NCBI GenBank assembly: GCA_031277615.1
Contig: JAITMC010000035.1
Span: forward strand, 186,001-250,000
Reading direction: 5' to 3'
Length of the DNA: 64,000 nt
Source: Chryseobacterium sp.
GTDB lineage: Bacteria; Bacteroidota; Bacteroidia; Flavobacteriales; Weeksellaceae
Below, piece by piece: positions 2,813 to 11,108 of this stretch. The notes under the pieces were generated by a model. It saw nothing but the letters and a program-made list of their open reading frames with translations, did no database searches and was not told where the DNA came from. How positions within the stretch are numbered: position 1 is the stretch's first letter; each line of letters begins with the position of its first letter. A program made the translations under genes and the position numbers.

Positions 2813-3655
2813 ATGAAAAAACAATTATCAATATTTATATTCCTGATTCTTCTTACAAGCTCAAACTTATATTCACAACTTGATAAAAATGGAAATCCAA
2901 TATTCAACAGTGAAAAAATAGAAAATATCAACTTTGAAAATCTTGAAATAATATCAAGTTATTATACGATTAAAGATAATATCGATAACAAACAATCATC
3001 GGTTTTCATAAATGAAAATCCCACTTCAGATGACTATTGGAATTTTTCAACAAAATTACCATCCTACTACTTTATGATTGTTGATAAAGGGATTGTCAAT
3101 GGAATGTTAATGTTGATTCCCAAGAATGATGATTCGTTCTTCTATAATGTAGTAATCCCAGGTAAAAAGGAAAATTTTCAAATTCCCTCGACACTTAAAG
3201 GTAAAATAACAGAAAACAGGGCAAAAGAATTAGCAGGCATTAAAAAAGCCAATGCCAGCATCCATAATGGTGTATTAAAATTCAACAATAAAGATTTTCA
3301 GATTTTAAAATACAATGATATCATTGAAGAAGTAAAAAATATTGCAAAGGAAAAAATCATTAAAAATAACGATAGTGAAAGTCTTACTATTGAAGAATAC
3401 ATTAAGGCAGAATCTAAAGGAGGAAAGCTTGATTTCAAAAAAACGGTCGAAGAATATAATGGTTTCTTTATCAACTTCGACGGAATTATGTATAACAAAA
3501 AAGACTTTGCCATCTTGATGTGGGGTGCCGCCGTTAAACAAGCTGGTATCACAGAACTGGATAAAGCACAGTTACTTTGGCAAAAAATCTATGAAAGGAA
3601 TTTAAGCGAGCCAGAATTGAAGGCACTCCGGAAAGGTTTTGAATCTAAGTTTTAA
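2813..3655 (+). CDS. Secreted unknown protein, 280 residues
   Basis: Begins with a Sec signal peptide (MKKQLSIFIFLILLTSSNLYSQ, predicted cleavage after YS or SQ near residue 22), so it acts in the periplasm, at the surface or outside. The mature part is Asn/Lys-rich with no catalytic motif I can name. Residues 170-260 look helical (IIEEVKNIAKEKIIKNN, LTIEEYIKAESK) and the tail ITELDKAQLLWQKIYERNL is a likely helical hairpin. It has its own promoter box at 2776 and is followed after 5 bases by another stem-loop repeat, so it is probably monocistronic. Function unknown. Confidence 0.82.
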   Translation: MKKQLSIFIFLILLTSSNLYSQLDKNGNPIFNSEKIENINFENLEIISSYYTIKDNIDNKQSSVFINENPTSDDYWNFSTKLPSYYFMIVDKGIVNGMLMLIPKNDDSFFYNVVIPGKKENFQIPSTLKGKITENRAKELAGIKKANASIHNGVLKFNNKDFQILKYNDIIEEVKNIAKEKIIKNNDSESLTIEEYIKAESKGGKLDFKKTVEEYNGFFINFDGIMYNKKDFAILMWGAAVKQAGITELDKAQLLWQKIYERNLSEPELKALRKGFESKF

Positions 3656-3660
3656 GGTCA

Positions 3661-3729
3661 CTGCTGCGCAAAGTCTCCCGACTTTGCACTACAAAACAAA
3701 TCCTCCGAAGTCAGGAGACTTCGGAGAGC
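3661..3729 (+). repeat. Twin stem-loop repeat, copy F
   Basis: Both stems intact, starting 5 bases after the stop codon of the gene at 2813. Such a position suits a role at mRNA 3' ends, for example processing or stability. No T-run follows. Confidence 0.9.
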
Positions 3730-3781
3730 TAGGTTATATAAAATTGACATTCATAGAAATACAACAAAAACAACAACATTA

Positions 3782-4516
3782 ATGGGATATTGGCGCTCAC
3801 TCCATTTATTTGACGATAAAAAATTTTATGCAGACGTGGTTCCCACTTTAAAGGGAGAAAAGGGAGATCTAACAGCAGATTGCCTGGAATTCCTAAAATT
3901 CCATATTACCGGAAGCACTTCACGCCTGTCTCAACACGAGCTGGAAAAACTCGTCAGGGATATTATTGACAATATTATTTCAATATCAAAATCATTTGAC
4001 CCAACTTTTAAAATCAATAGCGAATATGACAAAATAGGAGATCGTGATGCCCAGCAAATATTTTTAAATGGTTCGGATGAGCATTATGATTTTTGTAAGT
4101 TTTTCGAGTTTTATGTCTTCAAGACCTGCGCTGATTTCTCCCCGCTTTTAGCCCTTGGAAAAGGCGGTGTATTCCGGAATTTTGACCTCTCTGTAAAAAC
4201 ATTTTCCTATTCCATCATTGAAGAGCTGGACGACTGGAACCATTTTTTTCATTATGACAGAATGGGAATCACAAACTGGCTCACCGATGAAGATCTTCAA
4301 TACCTTTATCTGGATAAAGAGAATTTGAAGCATAACGGCAATGAACCGGCTAAGGCCTTCCTTTCCCTTCTTGAAGTAGCTCACAGTAACGAATTAGGAA
4401 TGATTATAGGAGTAGATATGAGAGAAGACAGATTAAGGTTACTTCCCGGTCATAAAACGGTAAAACCTGAAATCTGGACATCAGAAAATTCATCCGGACT
4501 GTTTTGGGATTTATAA
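3782..4516 (+). CDS. Unknown 244-residue cytosolic protein
   Basis: A soluble protein starting MGYWRSLHLFDDKKFYADVVP. No signal peptide, no transmembrane segment, no catalytic signature. Predicted mostly alpha-helical with acidic patches (SIIEELDDWNHFFHYDRMG, LTDEDLQYLYLDKENL). I believe similar MGYWRSLHLF proteins occur in other Bacteroidota as uncharacterised proteins, but that is from memory. The start is supported by an A-rich leader and the lack of an upstream in-frame alternative. The next gene follows after 34 bases, so the two may be cotranscribed and end at the terminator at 5092. Confidence 0.82.
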   Translation: MGYWRSLHLFDDKKFYADVVPTLKGEKGDLTADCLEFLKFHITGSTSRLSQHELEKLVRDIIDNIISISKSFDPTFKINSEYDKIGDRDAQQIFLNGSDEHYDFCKFFEFYVFKTCADFSPLLALGKGGVFRNFDLSVKTFSYSIIEELDDWNHFFHYDRMGITNWLTDEDLQYLYLDKENLKHNGNEPAKAFLSLLEVAHSNELGMIIGVDMREDRLRLLPGHKTVKPEIWTSENSSGLFWDL

Positions 4517-4550
4517 CAACATTGGCTGCAATAAAAAACATTAACAATCC

Positions 4551-5048
4551 ATGAATTTCATCAAAAAACACTTCTCAAAATCAAAAAAGAGAATAGGCGT
4601 CATTTTAACATTAGAGATTTCTACATCAGATGTCAACACTTCTGAATTTGCAGATTTTAAAGTAGTCAGCTGGTATGACATTCTTGAAAAATATAATTAT
4701 CGTCCGTCAATGGATCCTTATGCCAGGAAACTTGACTCCATTTATGAAGAGATCATTCGTTCTGAAGATCCTATTTTAATCTGTAATACCGGATTAAGTG
4801 TTCCCGACATTGATGCGCTCTCTGAAATGTTGAAGCCGCACGAGCTATGCATCGATAAAATTTTAATCCCCACCGAATCCAAAAGGAAGAAAAAACTTGC
4901 TGAAGGCCAGGAAGCCTATAGAAATCACAGTCGATGGCTCAATCTTTACCCCGGAGAGATTGAAGATATATACCACGAATTTGAAGCGAAAATTGAGGGC
5001 TTAAAATCAAGGTATAAAAATACCGGAACGGAAGTGCTGGAAGTTTAA
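4551..5048 (+). CDS. Unknown 165-residue protein
   Basis: Begins with a basic stretch (MNFIKKHFSKSKKRIG), then a beta-strand (VILTLEIST) and an alternating helix/strand pattern to residue 165. No signal peptide. The C-terminal third (KRKKKLAEGQEAYRNHSRW) is strongly charged. I do not recognise a family. Thirty-four bases separate it from the gene at 3782, suggesting a two-gene unit that ends at the strong hairpin with nine T at 5092-5122. Confidence 0.75.
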   Translation: MNFIKKHFSKSKKRIGVILTLEISTSDVNTSEFADFKVVSWYDILEKYNYRPSMDPYARKLDSIYEEIIRSEDPILICNTGLSVPDIDALSEMLKPHELCIDKILIPTESKRKKKLAEGQEAYRNHSRWLNLYPGEIEDIYHEFEAKIEGLKSRYKNTGTEVLEV

Positions 5049-5091
5049 AGCTGAACGCTCAACACGGAATTGGAGTCGATACAATGCATCA

Positions 5092-5122
5092 TCTGAAGTC
5101 AACGGATTTCGGATTTTTTTTT
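5092..5122 (+). terminator. Intrinsic terminator after the gene at 4551
   Basis: A 9-bp hairpin (TCTGAAGTC/GATTTCGGA with two G-T pairs) around an AACG loop, followed by nine T. The stem resembles the right arm of the stem-loop repeat (CTCCGAAGTC/GACTTCGGAG), so it may descend from one. It insulates the peptide operon that follows. Confidence 0.75.
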
Positions 5123-5391: not shown

Positions 5392-5422
5392 TTGCGTAAC
5401 TGATTTTTTATTGTTAAAATTG
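5392..5422 (+). promoter_or_regulatory. Candidate promoter of the peptide (RiPP-like) operon
   Basis: TTG at 5392-5394, a 20-base spacer, then TAAAATTG at 5415-5422, one mismatch from the flavobacterial TAnnTTTG. It lies 28 bases before the precursor ATG at 5451. The spacing equals that of the exact promoter at 8757-8787. Confidence 0.6.
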
Positions 5423-5450
5423 AAAAGTTTAACTTAAAAAACAAAATATT

Positions 5451-5789
5451 ATGCAAACAAAAACATTAAACATTCAGTACAATCCAAATGTACTTAACAA
5501 CAGTAAGGTAGAATCTCCAAGAGACACTTATTCCTTTCTTAACAAACTTGTTAATGACAAAGACTTTTATGTAGAGTTTCAAATGAATCCTATGAAAATC
5601 TTTAAAGATTATAATTTTGATACCAGTAAGATTGTCATCCCAAATGATTTTATTCTGCCTTCCCAACAGGAACTGCGCGAAAGATTATCATACATAAACA
5701 ACTATGAAGATTTTGTTTCTCCTTCTCAGATTCAAAGCTTACCTATTCTTCCGGTAGTTTTTGTATTTATTCCAATTTTCGCTTATTAA
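5451..5789 (+). CDS. Candidate RiPP precursor peptide with NHLP-like leader
   Basis: A 112-residue protein read as a modified-peptide precursor. Residues 27-68 (from YSFLNKLVNDKDFYVEFQMN to IVIPNDFIL) follow the plan of nitrile-hydratase-like leader peptides: a helix, an F-x3-F-x2-NP motif, an acidic position and an IxIP strand. Residues 91-112 form a separate tail, PSQIQSLPIL then PVVFVFIPIFAY, made of Pro, Val, Ile, Leu and Phe and ending in Tyr. It contains no Cys, and no Ser or Thr after residue 96. It is not a signal peptide because it is C-terminal. The dehydrogenase gene starts 16 bases downstream, then a membrane protein and an ABC ATPase. Seen: leader pattern, tail and context. Inferred: that the tail is modified and exported. 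Confidence 0.72.
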   Translation: MQTKTLNIQYNPNVLNNSKVESPRDTYSFLNKLVNDKDFYVEFQMNPMKIFKDYNFDTSKIVIPNDFILPSQQELRERLSYINNYEDFVSPSQIQSLPILPVVFVFIPIFAY

Positions 5790-5805
5790 TAAAAAATCAT
5801 CACCT

Positions 5806-6993
5806 ATGTTATTAAAAAGGTCTAAGTATATTTTTTTCTTTTTTAGAAATTTTCCAACGTTAAATCTAAAGGCAATTTTAGAAAACAATTTTGAATTCAA
5901 TGAAGAGATCATCTCAATACCCATTCTTTATGGAAAAGAAGTGAAACTCTCAAAAGAAGAATTTGAATTTTTATTATCTATAAAAGAAAATGACTGGGCC
6001 TTTTATGAAAATGTAAATGATGAAATAGTAAAGAAATTTGTCGAAATAGGAGTAATTTTTGATAAAAATTCAGAAGCAAGTCAGGCTTTCCTTAACAAAG
6101 AAAATATTCTCGTTGACCAGCAATGGCATATTTATGCAGCATTATACAGTGCGATGACCAAGTGGAGAGATATTGATATTAAATTTAAAATAGCCACCAC
6201 TAAAATGGATTCTGCGGAGGATATGAAAAAAATGATCGAAGAAAATGGATATCCTCCGTTATTTTACCATACCGTAGACCAATATATCAACAAAGTAAAG
6301 ATCAATTACCCGGATCTGAAAGAAGACCCTTTCTTCAATATTCTGCTTCAAAGAAAAACATCCAGAAACTTTGATATTCATAAAAAATTATCTTTTACGG
6401 ACTTATCTGTTATTTTAAAGTATACATTCGGAGTTCACGGAATCCGCAGCTTATATGATTCCAACATTCAATCTGTAAAAAAAACAAGCCCTTCGGGAGG
6501 AGGATTGCATTCTACCGAAGCCTATATTCTGGTAATGAGAGTAGAGGGACTAGAATGTGGAATGTACCATTATAACACCAATGATGACAGCCTATATCTG
6601 GTCAAAAAGTACACGGAGGAAGAAGCCGTTCAGAAAGCATATCAGTTCACTGCAGGACAGGAATACTGCTCAGATGCTTCGGTACTCTTTTTTATGTCGC
6701 ACAGATACTACAGAAACTATTGGAAATACCGAAAAAACACGAGTGCTTACTCCGTACTGTTAAGAGAAGCCGGTCATTTATCACAAAATATTTATCTTAT
6801 CGCCACAAAACTTAATTTAGGAGTTTTCACAGCTGCGATCAACCATATTAATATTGAAGAAGAGCTAACTTTGAACAGCTTTGAACAGGGAATTTCTGCA
6901 ATGGTGGGTATTGGCATAAAAGATAAGAATCCTGTAATGAGTATAGAGCCGGTATTCCATGAATTTATTGCTGATGAATCCAAAAATACTTAA
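5806..6993 (+). CDS. SagB-type (nitroreductase-fold) peptide maturation dehydrogenase
   Basis: 395 residues. The C-terminal half is a SagB/ThcOx-type flavin domain: RKTSRNFD (183-190) matches the R-x2-SR-x-F opening, TSPSGGGLHSTEAYI (227-241) the PSGG-x-HP-x-E FMN loop, and REAGHLSQNIYLIATKLNLG (320-339) the GH-x2-QN helix. Family members use FMN to oxidise azolines to azoles or otherwise dehydrogenate peptides. The N-terminal 100 residues look like a winged-helix (residues 46-86), possibly a precursor-recognition element. From memory, a SagB-related family called putative peptide maturation dehydrogenase (TIGR04511) fits. The ATG at 5806 is preferred over an in-frame TTG at 5761 that would overlap the precursor gene. 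The 3' end overlaps the next gene by 20-35 bases. Confidence 0.82.
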   Translation: MLLKRSKYIFFFFRNFPTLNLKAILENNFEFNEEIISIPILYGKEVKLSKEEFEFLLSIKENDWAFYENVNDEIVKKFVEIGVIFDKNSEASQAFLNKENILVDQQWHIYAALYSAMTKWRDIDIKFKIATTKMDSAEDMKKMIEENGYPPLFYHTVDQYINKVKINYPDLKEDPFFNILLQRKTSRNFDIHKKLSFTDLSVILKYTFGVHGIRSLYDSNIQSVKKTSPSGGGLHSTEAYILVMRVEGLECGMYHYNTNDDSLYLVKKYTEEEAVQKAYQFTAGQEYCSDASVLFFMSHRYYRNYWKYRKNTSAYSVLLREAGHLSQNIYLIATKLNLGVFTAAINHINIEEELTLNSFEQGISAMVGIGIKDKNPVMSIEPVFHEFIADESKNT

Positions 6994-7873
6994 TTATTTT
7001 AATTTCAGAATCAACCAGTTTTTCAGACTCTTTAATCATGAAAGTGATTTCGGAGCCATTTATAGTATTGGTTTCCTATGTATTATCTTTTTGAACTTAA
7101 ACGCATATCCATTCGTATTTGTTTTACCCATTCTGCTCATTCATCTGAGAAGAAAAGATATTGATTTTGTAAAGAAAATTTTCCCGGATTATTGGTTTGT
7201 TCCTGTTTTAACAGAATATACAATCTTGTTCCTGCTCTTCATTGTAGCAAATATACATTATAAAATTTCCATTCATTCTTTTTACATTTATTTCATTGTC
7301 ATTTCAACAGTCTTCATTCCGGTATACTCCAATGCTGAATATTCATTGATAAAATGGAACTTTATTCCGAATACCACATTTGAATGGAAATCATTTTTGA
7401 GAGAAAAGACACTCATTGCATTCATTTATTTCATTGGGCTTCTTTTTTCTGCCTATCACCCGTTTACCCTTATTCTGATGGGAGTTTTTTATTTGGATTT
7501 CATTTCAAATATTTATAAAACCAATGAGAATAAGGAGTTATTGGAATCTTTCTTTAAAAATTATGATTTCTCGGAAAAACTAAAATTCAATATCATAGTC
7601 TTCAATCTGACTTTGCTGCCAACGATTATCATCTATCTGATTATGAATTACTCAGAATTTGTATATTTACTCTATTACATTCTTGCTATGAATTTATATG
7701 TATTACTCATCATTAGCAGAAAGTATAGTATTTACAGCCACAGAATCAAAGAAAATGGTTATAATTCAGGAATATTCATGAAGTATTTGATAAGCAGTTT
7801 TTTCGTTATTCCGTTCTTTTTTTTCTTCAGAGAAAACTATAATAACGCCATTAAAAGAATCAATTTATTTTAA
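6959..7873 (+). CDS. Polytopic membrane protein, likely exporter permease of the peptide operon
   Basis: About 300 residues, strongly hydrophobic, with roughly eight membrane spans (for example ILFLLFIVANIHY, YIYFIVISTVFIPVY and TLLPTIIIYLIMNY). No enzymatic motif. It overlaps the dehydrogenase gene by 35 bases, or 20 if the in-frame ATG at 6974 is the true start. The ATPase gene starts 2 bases after its stop. This overlap implies coupled translation. Small ABC-2-like permeases paired with a separate short ATPase are a standard way to export or gain immunity to peptides (BcrA/BcrB-like). I infer that role. Sequence alone would not identify it as an ABC permease. Confidence 0.75.
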   Translation: MNLLLMNPKILNYFNFRINQFFRLFNHESDFGAIYSIGFLCIIFLNLNAYPFVFVLPILLIHLRRKDIDFVKKIFPDYWFVPVLTEYTILFLLFIVANIHYKISIHSFYIYFIVISTVFIPVYSNAEYSLIKWNFIPNTTFEWKSFLREKTLIAFIYFIGLLFSAYHPFTLILMGVFYLDFISNIYKTNENKELLESFFKNYDFSEKLKFNIIVFNLTLLPTIIIYLIMNYSEFVYLLYYILAMNLYVLLIISRKYSIYSHRIKENGYNSGIFMKYLISSFFVIPFFFFFRENYNNAIKRINLF

Positions 7874-7875
7874 AA

Positions 7876-8514
7876 ATGTTATCAATTAAAAATCTACAGG
7901 TAGCTTACAATAATATTTCGATTATTGAAAATTTAAATGTAAATATTGAAGAAGGAGAAATAATAGGGATACTTGGAAAAAACGGGGCAGGAAAGACTAC
8001 ATTTTTCAATGCATTATATCATAACATTCCCTATAAAGGAAGTATACATTTTGAAAACAAGGCTATTTCAAGAAAACAGATTGGTTTTTTGGAAACCGAA
8101 AATTATTTTTATCCATATATGACAGGAGAAGAATACTTATCTTTTTTCACCCATAAAAAGAGTTCTGACTTCTGTAGAAATCTGATTAAAAAATTCGATT
8201 TGCCTCTAAAGAAATTTGTACAAAATTACTCCACAGGAATGAAAAAAAAGCTGGCCTTGCTCGCCTTGCTTTTATTGGATAAGCCGGTCATCATTCTGGA
8301 CGAACCGTTTAACGGAATGGATTTCGAAGGCGTGGGTCTTTTATATGAAGTGATTCAGGATCTAAAAAAAGAAAAAAAAATAGTACTGATAAGCTCCCAT
8401 ATTATTGAGACGCTATTTAATACCTGTGATAAAATTGCTATTCTGCAAAACAAACAAATTACTGAAGTAATTGAACATAATAACTTTAGCTTATTAAAAG
8501 ATATTTATTCATAA
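7876..8514 (+). CDS. ABC transporter ATP-binding protein of the peptide operon
   Basis: 212 residues, a single minimal nucleotide-binding domain. Walker A is GKNGAGKT (34-41), the signature is YSTGMKKK (118-125, a variant of LSGGQ), Walker B is VIILDEP (138-144) and the H-loop is His175 in SSHIIE. There is no C-terminal extension and no C39 peptidase domain, so it would drive transport but not cut a leader peptide. It should pair with the membrane protein encoded 2 bases upstream to export the matured peptide or protect the producer. The operon ends here; a hairpin with a short T-run lies at 8600. Confidence 0.92.
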   Translation: MLSIKNLQVAYNNISIIENLNVNIEEGEIIGILGKNGAGKTTFFNALYHNIPYKGSIHFENKAISRKQIGFLETENYFYPYMTGEEYLSFFTHKKSSDFCRNLIKKFDLPLKKFVQNYSTGMKKKLALLALLLLDKPVIILDEPFNGMDFEGVGLLYEVIQDLKKEKKIVLISSHIIETLFNTCDKIAILQNKQITEVIEHNNFSLLKDIYS

Positions 8515-8599
8515 AAAAATTGACAAATTAACACAGCCTCACAAAGTTTCCTCTCTTTGAATAAATAAGCCAAGATGGAAAACCGGTAACGTCAGCTTT

Positions 8600-8622
8600 A
8601 GATAACCGTAAGTTATCTTTTT
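8600..8622 (+). terminator. Probable terminator of the peptide operon
   Basis: AGATAAC-CGTAA-GTTATCT, a 7-bp A/T-rich stem with a 5-base loop, followed by TTTT at 8619-8622. It sits in the 303-bp gap between the ATPase gene (8514) and the next gene (8818). Apart from this and the promoter at 8757, that gap holds only a very degenerate piece of the stem-loop repeat near 8535. Confidence 0.6.
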
Positions 8623-8756
8623 CATCCTTCCACACATCATATTCCGGCAAGTATTCCGGCTTTGCACCAGAAAAAATGATTCAAAAACGAATACCTATTC
8701 CAGCAGATTACCTGATACAGAATATTATTTTTCAATAAAATACATATCACTTTTAC

Positions 8757-8787
8757 TTGCAGGATATAGGGGCAATACGTAGATTTG
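8757..8787 (+). promoter_or_regulatory. Flavobacterial promoter for the gene at 8818
   Basis: TTG at 8757-8759, a 20-base spacer and an exact TAnnTTTG box (TAGATTTG, 8780-8787), 30 bases before the ATG at 8818. This is the clearest complete promoter in the window. Confidence 0.75.
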
Positions 8788-8817
8788 GAAGTCTACAACA
8801 TAAAAAACTAATAACTT

Positions 8818-9378
8818 ATGGCAAACAGATCATATCTTTACACGGCAAGTAAAGAATTAACCCAGCTGCGTGATGTATCGGAATGGAACTATGACATTCC
8901 CCTGTTTTATAAAATCGTTCTGGGTTCTGAAACTCAAATGTCTGCTTCTAAAATATGGAACTTTGAGCTCCCCATCGTCATTAAAGGCGATTTCAAAAAC
9001 GGATTAAAGAAATTTTACGATTTTTTAGATTACCTCGAAACCCAACAGGATCTTGATAAAGAAGCAATAGCCGGATACAGGCAGGACACCCTGGATTTCT
9101 TTGAAAAGTATCCTGAAAGAGCACTGGATCTATTTTTTATGGAAGGAGGTGAAATTTTTGATATGACAGGAGACGTCACTCCCATTGAACAGCAAAACGA
9201 AGCCCTTTACCACGAAATTATTTCAATTTCAAAAGACATTGATGATATTTTAAATCAAAAACCAGACAATGTATTCGATTTTAAACACACTCCGTGGCTT
9301 CAGGAAATAAAAAAAGACATTAATGCATTATCGGTATACTGGACGTATGTAACGTATTTCTCATTCAATAAATCATAA
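8818..9378 (+). CDS. MANRSYLY-type small cytosolic protein, function unknown
   Basis: 186 residues, soluble, acidic. It opens MANRSYLYTASKELTQLRDV and continues with SEWNYDIPLFYKIVLG. I remember a family of uncharacterised proteins with the same MANRSYLY opening in many bacteria, often found as small solitary genes near toxin/immunity loci. The family number is not certain. The protein looks mostly helical, with an acidic middle (DYLETQQDLDKEA, FMEGGEIFDMTGDVTP). No catalytic motif. It has its own complete promoter at 8757-8787, and the next gene follows after 25 bases, so the two may be cotranscribed. Confidence 0.85.
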   Translation: MANRSYLYTASKELTQLRDVSEWNYDIPLFYKIVLGSETQMSASKIWNFELPIVIKGDFKNGLKKFYDFLDYLETQQDLDKEAIAGYRQDTLDFFEKYPERALDLFFMEGGEIFDMTGDVTPIEQQNEALYHEIISISKDIDDILNQKPDNVFDFKHTPWLQEIKKDINALSVYWTYVTYFSFNKS

Positions 9379-9403
9379 AAACAACCGAAATAGACAAAAG
9401 ATT

Positions 9404-9973
9404 ATGGCAACAATGTACAACATCAGGATAAAAGAAATCGATAAAAACAGCCTGACGACAGAAGTAACATATATTCATCCGGATGCCGGCAAAGAAATAG
9501 GCAGTAAAGATTTTGCTTTACAGATTATATGCAATACTTCAAGAGATTTGAATTGGAGGGAATTACCCGTTTCTAAGGAAGAATGGAAGAATTCAATTGA
9601 TAATCACCCGGAAAAAGAAAAAATCACAACATTAAATGAATATTTATCGGGCAAAAAAATTTTTATTGATGAAGAAGAGTACGCAAGCCTGTCCGATCAT
9701 GAATCGAAAAGAAATATAGAAAGAAAGTACCAGCATAGATTTGATAACTGGGGAATAGAAAACGGACAACATTACATCCAGACTAAAATGAATGTAGCTG
9801 ATTTTACGGATGAAGCTGATACAATCATTATTGACCAACCTACAATAGTTTCAGTCAATAAGGATTCAAATCTCCTGACCTTTCAAGTAAATGATGAAAA
9901 TTTATTAGCGCATATCAAAGAGGGAATGAGCTATGACACAGCTTCATTCAGCATTCAGGATTATTATTTTTAG
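9404..9973 (+). CDS. Unknown 189-residue cytosolic protein
   Basis: Soluble and acidic, beginning MATMYNIRIKEIDKNSLTTE. The N-terminal part alternates short strands and turns. The middle (EKEKITTLNEYLSGKKIF) and C-terminal half (DTIIIDQPTIVSVNKDSNLL) give no recognisable motif. No signal peptide. It follows the MANRSYLY gene by 25 bases, with a perfect 15-bp hairpin 13 bases after its stop. Function unknown; a possible immunity or housekeeping role is only suggested by its neighbours. Confidence 0.8.
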   Translation: MATMYNIRIKEIDKNSLTTEVTYIHPDAGKEIGSKDFALQIICNTSRDLNWRELPVSKEEWKNSIDNHPEKEKITTLNEYLSGKKIFIDEEEYASLSDHESKRNIERKYQHRFDNWGIENGQHYIQTKMNVADFTDEADTIIIDQPTIVSVNKDSNLLTFQVNDENLLAHIKEGMSYDTASFSIQDYYF

Positions 9974-9985
9974 AAATAGAATTTT

Positions 9986-10020
9986 CCGGTTCGGCAAAGT
10001 CTCCGACTTTGCCGAACCGG
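9986..10020 (+). repeat. Perfect 15-bp hairpin derived from the repeat's left half
   Basis: CCGGTTCGGCAAAGT and its exact complement enclose a CTCCG loop. The core CAAAGT-CTCCG-ACTTTG is the left hairpin of the stem-loop repeat, but the flanks have changed together so that the stem is longer and perfect. The right hairpin is missing. No T-run follows. Thirteen bases after the stop at 9973. Confidence 0.85.
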
Positions 10021-10049
10021 GATAAAAAACAGTAAAAGAACGAACAAAA

Positions 10050-10613
10050 ATGACATTTTTATATACCGCAAGAGGAACATATGACAAGCATTATAACGAA
10101 GGCGGCATGTCCTGGGACAGGTATATGGAATGGTCTGAGCTGAAACATCTCACAGAACTTGTTTCTCTTGACGGAATGCTCAATGAAATTTTAGTGGAAC
10201 CCGATTTTGACAATGCTGACGACTGGAACTATATTCACGTTATCGGACACTATCAGACAGGCTTTTTTACAAGCTTTGATTTTGTCTGCAAACGATTAAA
10301 GAAAAAAGAAAAGTTCAATCTTCTCGCAGTTATGATAGAACCCGACCGGGAATGCAGTAAAATAAATCCTGACGGATTCGAGTTTATAGGCTATGAGCTG
10401 CTTGACCAGGATTTCAGCATCAGTGCTTTGACGAATTGCGGCAGTTTCTTTAACGAAACATTTTTGCCTGAAGACCTGAACAACAGAGGCCTTATTGACG
10501 GATTTGAAAAAGCATATGATCTGCAAAAGCGGCTTTTAGAAAATCATCCCGACGAATATCATGCAGACACCAACGTGATTGCCGTTTGGAGACATAAAAC
10601 AATAGGAAGGTAA
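10050..10613 (+). CDS. Unknown 187-residue cytosolic protein
   Basis: Soluble, with aromatic and acidic residues spread throughout: MSWDRYMEWSELKHLTELVS and FDNADDWNYIHVIGHYQTGF. No signal peptide or membrane span. The segments are typical of a small alpha/beta fold, but I cannot name a family. The next gene, encoding a secreted protein, starts 12 bases downstream, so the two are probably cotranscribed. The pairing of a small cytosolic with a small secreted protein recurs in this window but has no obvious meaning. Confidence 0.8.
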   Translation: MTFLYTARGTYDKHYNEGGMSWDRYMEWSELKHLTELVSLDGMLNEILVEPDFDNADDWNYIHVIGHYQTGFFTSFDFVCKRLKKKEKFNLLAVMIEPDRECSKINPDGFEFIGYELLDQDFSISALTNCGSFFNETFLPEDLNNRGLIDGFEKAYDLQKRLLENHPDEYHADTNVIAVWRHKTIGR

Positions 10614-10625
10614 AATAAAAGAATC

Positions 10626-11108
10626 ATGAAATATCTGTCAATTGTAATTCTATTCCTTTTTTTCAATGGTAATGCACAGAAAATGAATACAAAAAATAAC
10701 CACGATTTTATTCAGATAAATAAATCCGAAGTAAAAGAAGCTGATTTGGAGACCTTTGAATTCGCCAATTATGGGAAAATAAGAAATGAAGCAGCACCTT
10801 ATGGCGATTTTTTATCAAGAATGTGGACCAATTTTGGAAAACCGGAAAGTATAATGTTTGAAGGCTTTAATTATTTTATTAAGGATCAACAAACCAATAT
10901 TGTTTTTTTAGCTTTTTTTGGAGCTTCCGGTCCGGGGTATGCCGCAAAAAAAAATGATCTTGCAGCAATAAAACCCAGAATTGCAGAACTTGAACTGATT
11001 CTGGACCATTCAAAAAATGCAGATTGCGAGGAAGAAATTGAAACTGATTTTGGAATATTTTTATGTGGAGCAAAAAATGGAATTCCTTACGATAAACAAA
11101 AGCAATAA
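10626..11108 (+). CDS. Small secreted unknown protein, 160 residues
   Basis: Signal peptide MKYLSIVILFLFFNGNAQ, cleavage near residue 18. The mature 140 residues contain two cysteines (in NADCEEEIETD and IFLCGAKNG) that could form a disulphide, and the motif FFGASGPGYAA. Family unknown. It follows the gene at 10050 by 12 bases. A decayed trace of the repeat family's left half lies just after it, at about 11130-11165. Confidence 0.8.
   Translation: MKYLSIVILFLFFNGNAQKMNTKNNHDFIQINKSEVKEADLETFEFANYGKIRNEAAPYGDFLSRMWTNFGKPESIMFEGFNYFIKDQQTNIVFLAFFGASGPGYAAKKNDLAAIKPRIAELELILDHSKNADCEEEIETDFGIFLCGAKNGIPYDKQKQ

Follow-up and report, generated by a model that had tools for sequence, protein, structure and literature searches.

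A 64,000-nucleotide stretch of a Chryseobacterium sp. genome (GenBank assembly GCA_031277615.1, contig JAITMC010000035.1, positions 186,001 to 250,000; hereafter the window) carries four tightly spaced same-strand genes, encoding a small precursor peptide, a SagB-type dehydrogenase, a membrane protein and an ATP-binding cassette (ABC) ATPase (Table 1). We lean towards reading these genes as a minimal pathway for a ribosomally synthesized and post-translationally modified peptide (RiPP), in which the dehydrogenase would desaturate core residues directly, without an azoline. The preliminary description of this DNA had proposed a RiPP-like operon without a YcaO cyclodehydratase and with a TIGR04511 dehydrogenase, and at the level of sequence this proposal is upheld by the family score of the enzyme, the gene order in a second genome and the absence of any YcaO match. 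With a single precursor, a single enzyme and a core lacking Cys and Thr, the operon is about the simplest test case; given such a core, a shift of -2 Da alone could not be an azole.

Table 1. Positions of the operon genes and of features within their products
Feature	Position	Strand	Remarks
Precursor peptide gene	5451..5789	+	112 aa; open reading frame (ORF); orthologue at the same position in G311
Helical leader resembling nitrile-hydratase-like leader peptides (NHLP), residues 23-86	5517..5708	+	AlphaFold2 helices and hhalign
Proposed core SLPILPVVFVFIPIFAY, residues 96-112	5736..5786	+	Conservation against G311; boundary inferred
SagB-type dehydrogenase gene	5806..6993	+	395 aa, stand-alone, flavin mononucleotide (FMN)-type fold; start ATG 5806
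Lys307-Tyr308 (WKY) of the dehydrogenase	6724..6729	+	Invariant in 5/5 TIGR04511-type proteins; aligns with WKY of ThcOx/CyaGox
Membrane protein gene, proposed ABC permease	6974..7873	+	299 aa; alternative ATG 6959 gives 304 aa
ABC ATPase gene, without peptidase domain	7876..8514	+	212 aa

Operon layout and the stand-alone dehydrogenase

All four ORFs were recovered as first described, and they are joined, in order, by a 16-base gap, a 20-base overlap (35 bases if ATG 6959 is used) and a 2-base gap. That they are more than a chance assembly is indicated by G311, a genome of the same family, in which the precursor, dehydrogenase, membrane protein and ATPase genes follow one another in the same order (enzyme 60% identical) between fabD-like and clpB-like genes (named from their translations), a neighbourhood unlike that in the window; in addition, the precursor ORF drifts silently between the two genomes, in the manner of a coding sequence. 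The promoter and the two terminators said to bound the operon fared less well. Sigma-70-like sites were at chance level (20 observed, 20.6 expected in shuffled sequences), and such a scan does not model Bacteroidota promoters. Terminator-like sites were also at chance level (2 versus 1.4 in shuffles), lying at 5091-5114, upstream of the operon, and at 6258-6237, on the minus strand within the dehydrogenase gene, with none after 8514.

The second gene product reached 257.1 bits against TIGR04511 (SagB_rel_DH_2) over residues 4-374, above the curated cut-off of 240, and 113.4 bits against TIGR03605 (cut-off 78.4), and its only Pfam match was a Nitroreductase domain at residues 181-370. These scores bear out the assignment to SagB-type flavin dehydrogenases and argue against an unrelated flavoprotein. 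Its sequence matches in the PDB were Ava_2154 (a putative nitroreductase), ThcOx/CyaGox and BmdC. The AlphaFold2 model, built from 3 sequences, is weak, with a mean predicted local distance difference test score (pLDDT) of 51.3; with it, 80 of 269 Foldseek matches had E<=0.001, headed by ThcOx, Ava_2154, BmdC and McbC, and the AlbAB cyclodipeptide oxidase stood at rank 45 (E 1.8e-4). The Lys-Tyr pair is presumably catalytic in azoline oxidases, a role for which a supporting paper was sought and not found. Strands 36-39 and 45-48 and helices 50-58 and 74-80 in the N-terminal part would suit a leader-recognition domain, although the model is poor and nothing is claimed from it. Neither an HEXXH nor an MNIO family was among the NCBIfam and Pfam matches listed for the four operon proteins, and no protease gene was seen in the operon by ORF reading and by NCBIfam and Pfam scans.

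A YcaO cyclodehydratase (PF02624, E<=0.001) was found in 0/1 window genome, which is 98.38% complete, so that it is not merely encoded outside the window as one objection to the preliminary description would have it. It was likewise missing from the other carrier genomes, G311, G306, G212 and G639 (0/4), while the same search detected YcaO in 5/14 control genomes.

Of the last two genes, said to form a likely exporter, the ABC ATPase was confirmed. It matched PF00005 with 85 bits, and no peptidase domain was among its Pfam matches; its top NCBIfam scores, for TIGR03740 (lantibiotic protection; 107.9, cut-off 309.75) and PmtC (104.5), were both far below the cut-offs. The membrane protein, in contrast, had no Pfam or NCBIfam match, and its part in export is conjectural. 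Among the genome draws, which at family, genus, order and phylum level are samples, homologues of the membrane protein occurred in 57/296 family genomes, operon carriers included, and the window genome itself has a second membrane protein-ATPase pair (L072 4361-5894, 41% identity). Eleven paralogous loci were read: nine have an ATPase of 207-228 residues beside the membrane protein, with a dehydrogenase in none of these, whereas L078 lacks an adjoining ATPase and L081 has only a 59-residue ORF there. At L076, directly after such a pair, a Cys-containing Gly-Gly-leader peptide is encoded at 6629-6823, which scored 30.9 bits against NF047798 (bacteriocin-like leader; cut-off 23.5).

Leader and proposed core of the precursor

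Precursor and dehydrogenase genes also adjoin in two distant loci, one in a Gemmatimonadetes metagenome-assembled genome (MAG; L016, precursor 3656-4000, dehydrogenase from a GTG placed at 4018, TIGR04511 296.4 bits for the longer ORF) and the other on Sinorhizobium meliloti pSymA (L048, precursor 7611-7985, dehydrogenase 8001-9248, 270.3 bits). When three flavobacterial precursors (one a remnant) were aligned by hhalign with the leaders of these two, a match of 85% (E 6e-6) was obtained, with a score of 37.1, where 200 column shuffles reached 15.8 at most. By this profile comparison, the predicted leader is nitrile-hydratase-like. In the AlphaFold2 model, helices span residues 23-35, 37-45, 47-53 and 72-86, with block pLDDT of 69-89 over residues 21-80, whereas the whole model averages 59.1 and its core part is of low confidence and non-helical.

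The nitrile-hydratase-type leader of the preliminary description thus stands by its match to distant counterparts, but not by family models. For TIGR04509 (cut-off 34 bits), neither the window precursor nor that of G311 gave a match at E<=10; the remnant in MIP2422 scored 11.9, the Gemmatimonadetes precursor 30, below the cut-off, and the Sinorhizobium precursor 38.9, above it. The suggested TIGR04509/TIGR04511 system is accordingly borne out for the enzyme, while the precursor is not itself TIGR04509 and is linked to that family via its distant counterparts. The sole NCBIfam match of the window precursor was the Os1348 family NF038399 (14.3 bits, E 0.032; cut-off 40). Searched against the PDB as a single profile, the five precursors gave nitrile-hydratase alpha chains in 7/10 matches, several of them near-identical and none significant (E 0.07-0.52). 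Four of the 23 non-significant matches in a fold search with the precursor model were entries holding RiPP precursors (8tb1, 7ltr, 9chi and 8t1t), which we treat as no evidence. Unlike classical NHLP/proteusin systems, the operon has no TIGR03793 leader match, no Gly-Gly site (the precursor contains no Gly at all) and no peptidase-bearing ABC transporter. The precursor also has no ARMD tail of the pfl/pos type. From other TIGR04511/TIGR04509 systems it differs in the membrane protein and ABC ATPase that follow, in place of which the Gemmatimonadetes locus has a class III cyclase-like gene that is truncated where the contig ends.

The precursors of the window and G311 share 63-66% identity (two comparisons), and 16/17 of their final residues are identical despite synonymous changes in 7/17 codons. 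The 62 leader codons comprise 22 identical ones, 19 with silent differences and 21 with a residue change; the corresponding counts are 11, 12 and 5 for the last 28 codons and 9, 7 and 1 for the last 17, and dN is 0.28 in the leader and 0.15 in the last 28 codons. The free hydrophobic C-terminal tail noticed at the outset is strongly conserved in G311 and non-helical in the model. The likely core SLPILPVVFVFIPIFAY is Phe-rich, lacks Cys and Thr and contains a single, peripheral Ser, and the last 25 residues likewise lack Cys and Thr, their three Ser all lying upstream of LPILP. Because of this composition, azole formation on the core is judged very unlikely. Aromatic residues in the last 25 positions number 5 in the window, 5 in G311, 3 in Gemmatimonadetes and 4 in Sinorhizobium, and Tyr is the exact C-terminus of the first two precursors (Tyr112 in the window).

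Proposed desaturation and competing readings

In the pathway that we propose, the folded nitrile-hydratase-like leader would deliver the free, hydrophobic and aromatic-rich core (about SLPILPVVFVFIPIFAY) to the dehydrogenase, which, with FMN and with the invariant Lys-Tyr pair as base, would desaturate the C-alpha/C-beta bond of at least one core residue by removing two hydrogens, with Phe or Tyr as the likeliest target. The product would contain alpha,beta-dehydro residues (-2 Da each), formed directly without an azoline step, and the membrane protein and ABC ATPase would then export it or protect the producer; the leader would presumably be removed, and an antibacterial use is conceivable. 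The proposal builds on the four genes, on their shared order in the window genome and G311, and on the enzyme family, the YcaO searches and the conservation of the core. Desaturation at Phe or Tyr is suggested because there is a precedent in PflD, and because the core is Phe-rich and lacks Cys and Thr.

According to a 2025 preprint (PMC12636437), Phe within ...AAIFD... of a Pseudomonas NHLP precursor that has no double-Gly site is converted to Z-dehydroPhe by the nitroreductase half of PflD, and the cluster is listed without YcaO. To the knowledge of its authors, this is the first dehydroPhe in a RiPP; bacterial RiPPs are said there to derive their dehydroamino acids overwhelmingly from Ser, Cys and Thr, nitroreductases lacking an associated YcaO are described as rare and uncharacterised, and the authors suggest that others of this kind could make other dehydroamino acids (PMC12636437). 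PMC7726476 deals with a sister cluster, whose enzyme is termed SagB-type. As described, the pfl/pos systems (PflA/PosA with PflD) share with the window operon an NHLP-type precursor without Gly-Gly, a nitroreductase (annotated SagB-type in Os17), transporter genes, and a cluster with neither YcaO nor a protease gene; in contrast, their nitroreductase is fused to an MNIO enzyme and accompanied by an HEXXH enzyme and a GNAT, whereas the window dehydrogenase stands alone, and their precursor ends in poly-Gln and ARMD, whereas the window core is hydrophobic. The slight likeness between ...AIFD... of that core and ...PIFAY of the window proves nothing.

Several observations weigh against the proposed desaturation. 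The precedent is imperfect: PflD is an MNIO fusion that was likened to the window enzyme by description and not by sequence, it left unmodified peptide mixed with the product, and its sister PosD showed no activity in E. coli (PMC12636437). Only four precursors underlie the argued preference for aromatics. The fold search with the precursor model gave 0/23 matches at E<=0.001, and in it the published structure of the Os1348 leader was not prominent. The last 25 residues include one Cys and three Thr in Gemmatimonadetes and one Thr and two Ser in Sinorhizobium, so the wider family is not necessarily azole-incapable. In G311 a frameshift, which may be a sequencing error, interrupts the dehydrogenase gene within an A-rich stretch near codon 27, and the remaining fragment scores 231.6 bits against TIGR04511, below 240; of the four flavobacterial copies, one is undoubtedly intact and two are decayed.

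The strongest competitor, which we regard as unlikely yet worth weighing, is that the dehydrogenase forms some other two-electron product on the core, namely oxidation at the C-terminal Tyr112, an aromatic cross-link, or dehydrogenation of Val, Ile or Leu. The exact C-terminal Tyr shared by the window and G311 precursors fits such a reaction, but the Sinorhizobium precursor ends in FFL (tail LAFLSFVAFFL) and the Gemmatimonadetes precursor in AAAE, neither in Tyr. Cyclic dipeptide oxidases introduce dehydro residues, as in albonoursin, cyclo(dehydroPhe-dehydroLeu), according to PMC10880069, while the nitroreductase tested on an NHLP precursor yielded dehydroPhe (PMC12636437). AlbAB resembles the window enzyme as a nitroreductase-fold flavoenzyme, but its substrates are cyclic dipeptides, it forms filaments, and the structural match is remote only. 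AlbAB also has a partner subunit.

Considerably less probable is a non-RiPP function, in which the small protein would be a partner or regulatory subunit of a small-molecule dehydrogenase and the ABC pair would export that molecule. The operon's want of a protease gene and of a Gly-Gly site agrees with this, as does the occurrence of similar membrane protein-ATPase pairs apart from such enzymes; against it stand the strong conservation of the hydrophobic tail behind a folded leader and the Sinorhizobium counterpart, which passes the RiPP-precursor model TIGR04509. We give still less credence to a bacteriocin-like product consisting of the full-length protein or the unmodified tail, with the dehydrogenase incidental: in the related Os1348 system, cell lysates contained the precursor at full length (PMC7726476; PMC12636437), but precursor and dehydrogenase genes adjoin in Gemmatimonadetes and Sinorhizobium as well as in the window and G311.

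Least credible of all is an ordinary azole cluster, of the thiazole/oxazole-modified microcin (TOMM) or linear azol(in)e-containing peptide (LAP) type, with its cyclodehydratase encoded elsewhere and the SagB enzyme oxidising azolines; although azoline oxidation is the classical role of SagB-type dehydrogenases (PMC4603692), the fold neighbours of the enzyme are azoline oxidases and a missing contig is conceivable in the incomplete window genome, this reading is nearly refuted by the lack of YcaO in the window genome and the four other carriers searched, together with the lack of Cys and Thr in the last 25 residues. A distant YcaO was rejected on the PF02624 searches. The operon resembles SagBCD, McbBCD and the cyanobactin oxidases in the dehydrogenase fold, and shares the Lys-Tyr pair with ThcOx, but differs from them in having no cyclodehydratase found and no Cys or Thr in its core.

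Beyond direct desaturation in this operon, we tentatively entertain a wider idea that we hold to be rather doubtful as yet: stand-alone, YcaO-free SagB-type dehydrogenases might be a distinct class of enzymes that desaturate peptides between C-alpha and C-beta, either directed by a folded nitrile-hydratase-like leader (TIGR04511 pairs) or using as substrates the tiny array-encoded DFFD peptides described below, and might define RiPPs modified solely by dehydro-aromatic residues. The models TIGR04511 and TIGR04509 already exist, so that the kind was foreseen by their authors. These models, their short names and the term "peptide modification system cyclase" were named in no paper found outside subscription journals, and "peptide maturation dehydrogenase" occurred in one paper, in the context of another cluster. 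Judged by title and opening of the abstract, the four papers naming SagB and Chryseobacterium together (including PMC8939145) were not about such an operon.

Distribution, neighbouring genes and other SagB-like loci

Enzyme matches at E<=0.001 occurred in 20/320 family genomes. Four are close: the window genome itself (G000), G311 (aligned over residues 4-390), and G306 (61% identity) and G212 (57%), both partial. The other 16/20 are remote SagB-like proteins of 25-35% identity (best row per genome). Above its cut-off, TIGR04511 was found in 1/173 genus genomes, the own one, and at E<=0.001 in 14/173. At E<=1e-40 it was found in 2/395 genomes of the order draw (the own one and G311, the latter below the curated cut-off), in 1/395 of the phylum draw (the own one) and in 1/200 from the phylum of the Gemmatimonadetes MAG (itself). 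Among 58 plasmid records matching the enzyme, only that of Sinorhizobium was a full-length close match (32.5%, 100% covered), and a search with the Sinorhizobium enzyme returned 3 records, itself included. This sporadic carriage, together with the low GC content of the operon (30.8% over 5451-8514 versus 37.2% for the whole window), suggests horizontal spread.

Of 52 candidate related stretches, 3 were confirmed. In the family, G311 has all four genes in another neighbourhood, which answers the earlier call for the same gene order in relatives, and two further copies show losses. In Ap0902 (L015), no precursor ORF was seen, the enzyme lacks its first ~145 residues and the ATPase gene is divided between two frames. 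In MIP2422 (L017), the precursor ORF continues out of frame into the later portion of the enzyme gene, as would be expected after a deletion, and the membrane protein gene is interrupted by a transposase-like pair (a reading of translations). Among intact close relatives, no dehydrogenase was found without a leader-bearing gene, the sole precursor-less copy, L015, being truncated as well. A precursor profile matched 11 of 197 family genomes at E<=0.01, and the three strong matches (E<1e-30: G000, G311 and G212) all come from genomes in which the enzyme, or what remains of it, is also present; the remaining eight (E 6e-4 to 0.01) lie inside ORFs of 393-681 codons and were taken as chance.

The genes around the operon (2813-5048 and 8818-10613) have the appearance of small accessory or immunity-type genes, which is an impression only; one of six tested passes a Pfam cut-off, 8818-9378 being DUF7822 (82.9 bits), and anti-phage models gave 0 matches at E<=0.01 for 8 proteins tested. 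In L048, the Sinorhizobium precursor opens with a Tat-like signal (MRRRNFVAS...; a reading of the sequence), which suggests an export route other than an ABC pair. Beside the precursor and dehydrogenase genes of L048, within 5484-11085, lie genes for a 76-aa IniB/Nif11-like peptide (below both cut-offs) and a tetrapyrrole-methylase-like protein and, on the minus strand, a subtilase-like gene (5484-7172); no YcaO was noticed among the ORFs listed around these two genes, where not all ORFs were searched, nor was the whole genome. The 76-aa peptide and the tetrapyrrole-methylase-like protein resemble a split borosin pair.

A different SagB-like enzyme of ~350 aa is encoded in five loci of the same genus (L039-L043) and one of the same family (L044), preceded by microgenes whose peptide products, such as MKPVTTSPIENDFFDINIICW, are 20-30 residues long and share the motif DFFD(I/V/F)N, with a Cys close to the C-terminus. 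In L040, where the microgenes are in tandem with a ~120-bp period, the enzyme scored 120 bits against TIGR04511, below the cut-off. ORFs of 18-45 aa with the DFFD motif number 17, 7, 2, 2, 10 and 2 in L039 to L044, respectively; L041 and L042 end at contig ends, and near-motif copies such as DYFD were excluded. None of four DFFD peptides tested had an NCBIfam match, and YcaO was found in 0/6 of these genomes, one of which is 80% complete. An ABC exporter lies downstream of the SagB-like gene in L039-L043, and an aspartic-protease-like protein occurs in L040-L043 (TIGR02281 17.1 bits for L040, below the cut-off). In two further loci (L045 and L046, from G314 and G052), the SagB-like gene adjoins a YcaO gene in the manner of azole clusters, these being the 2/8 genomes tested in which YcaO was present.

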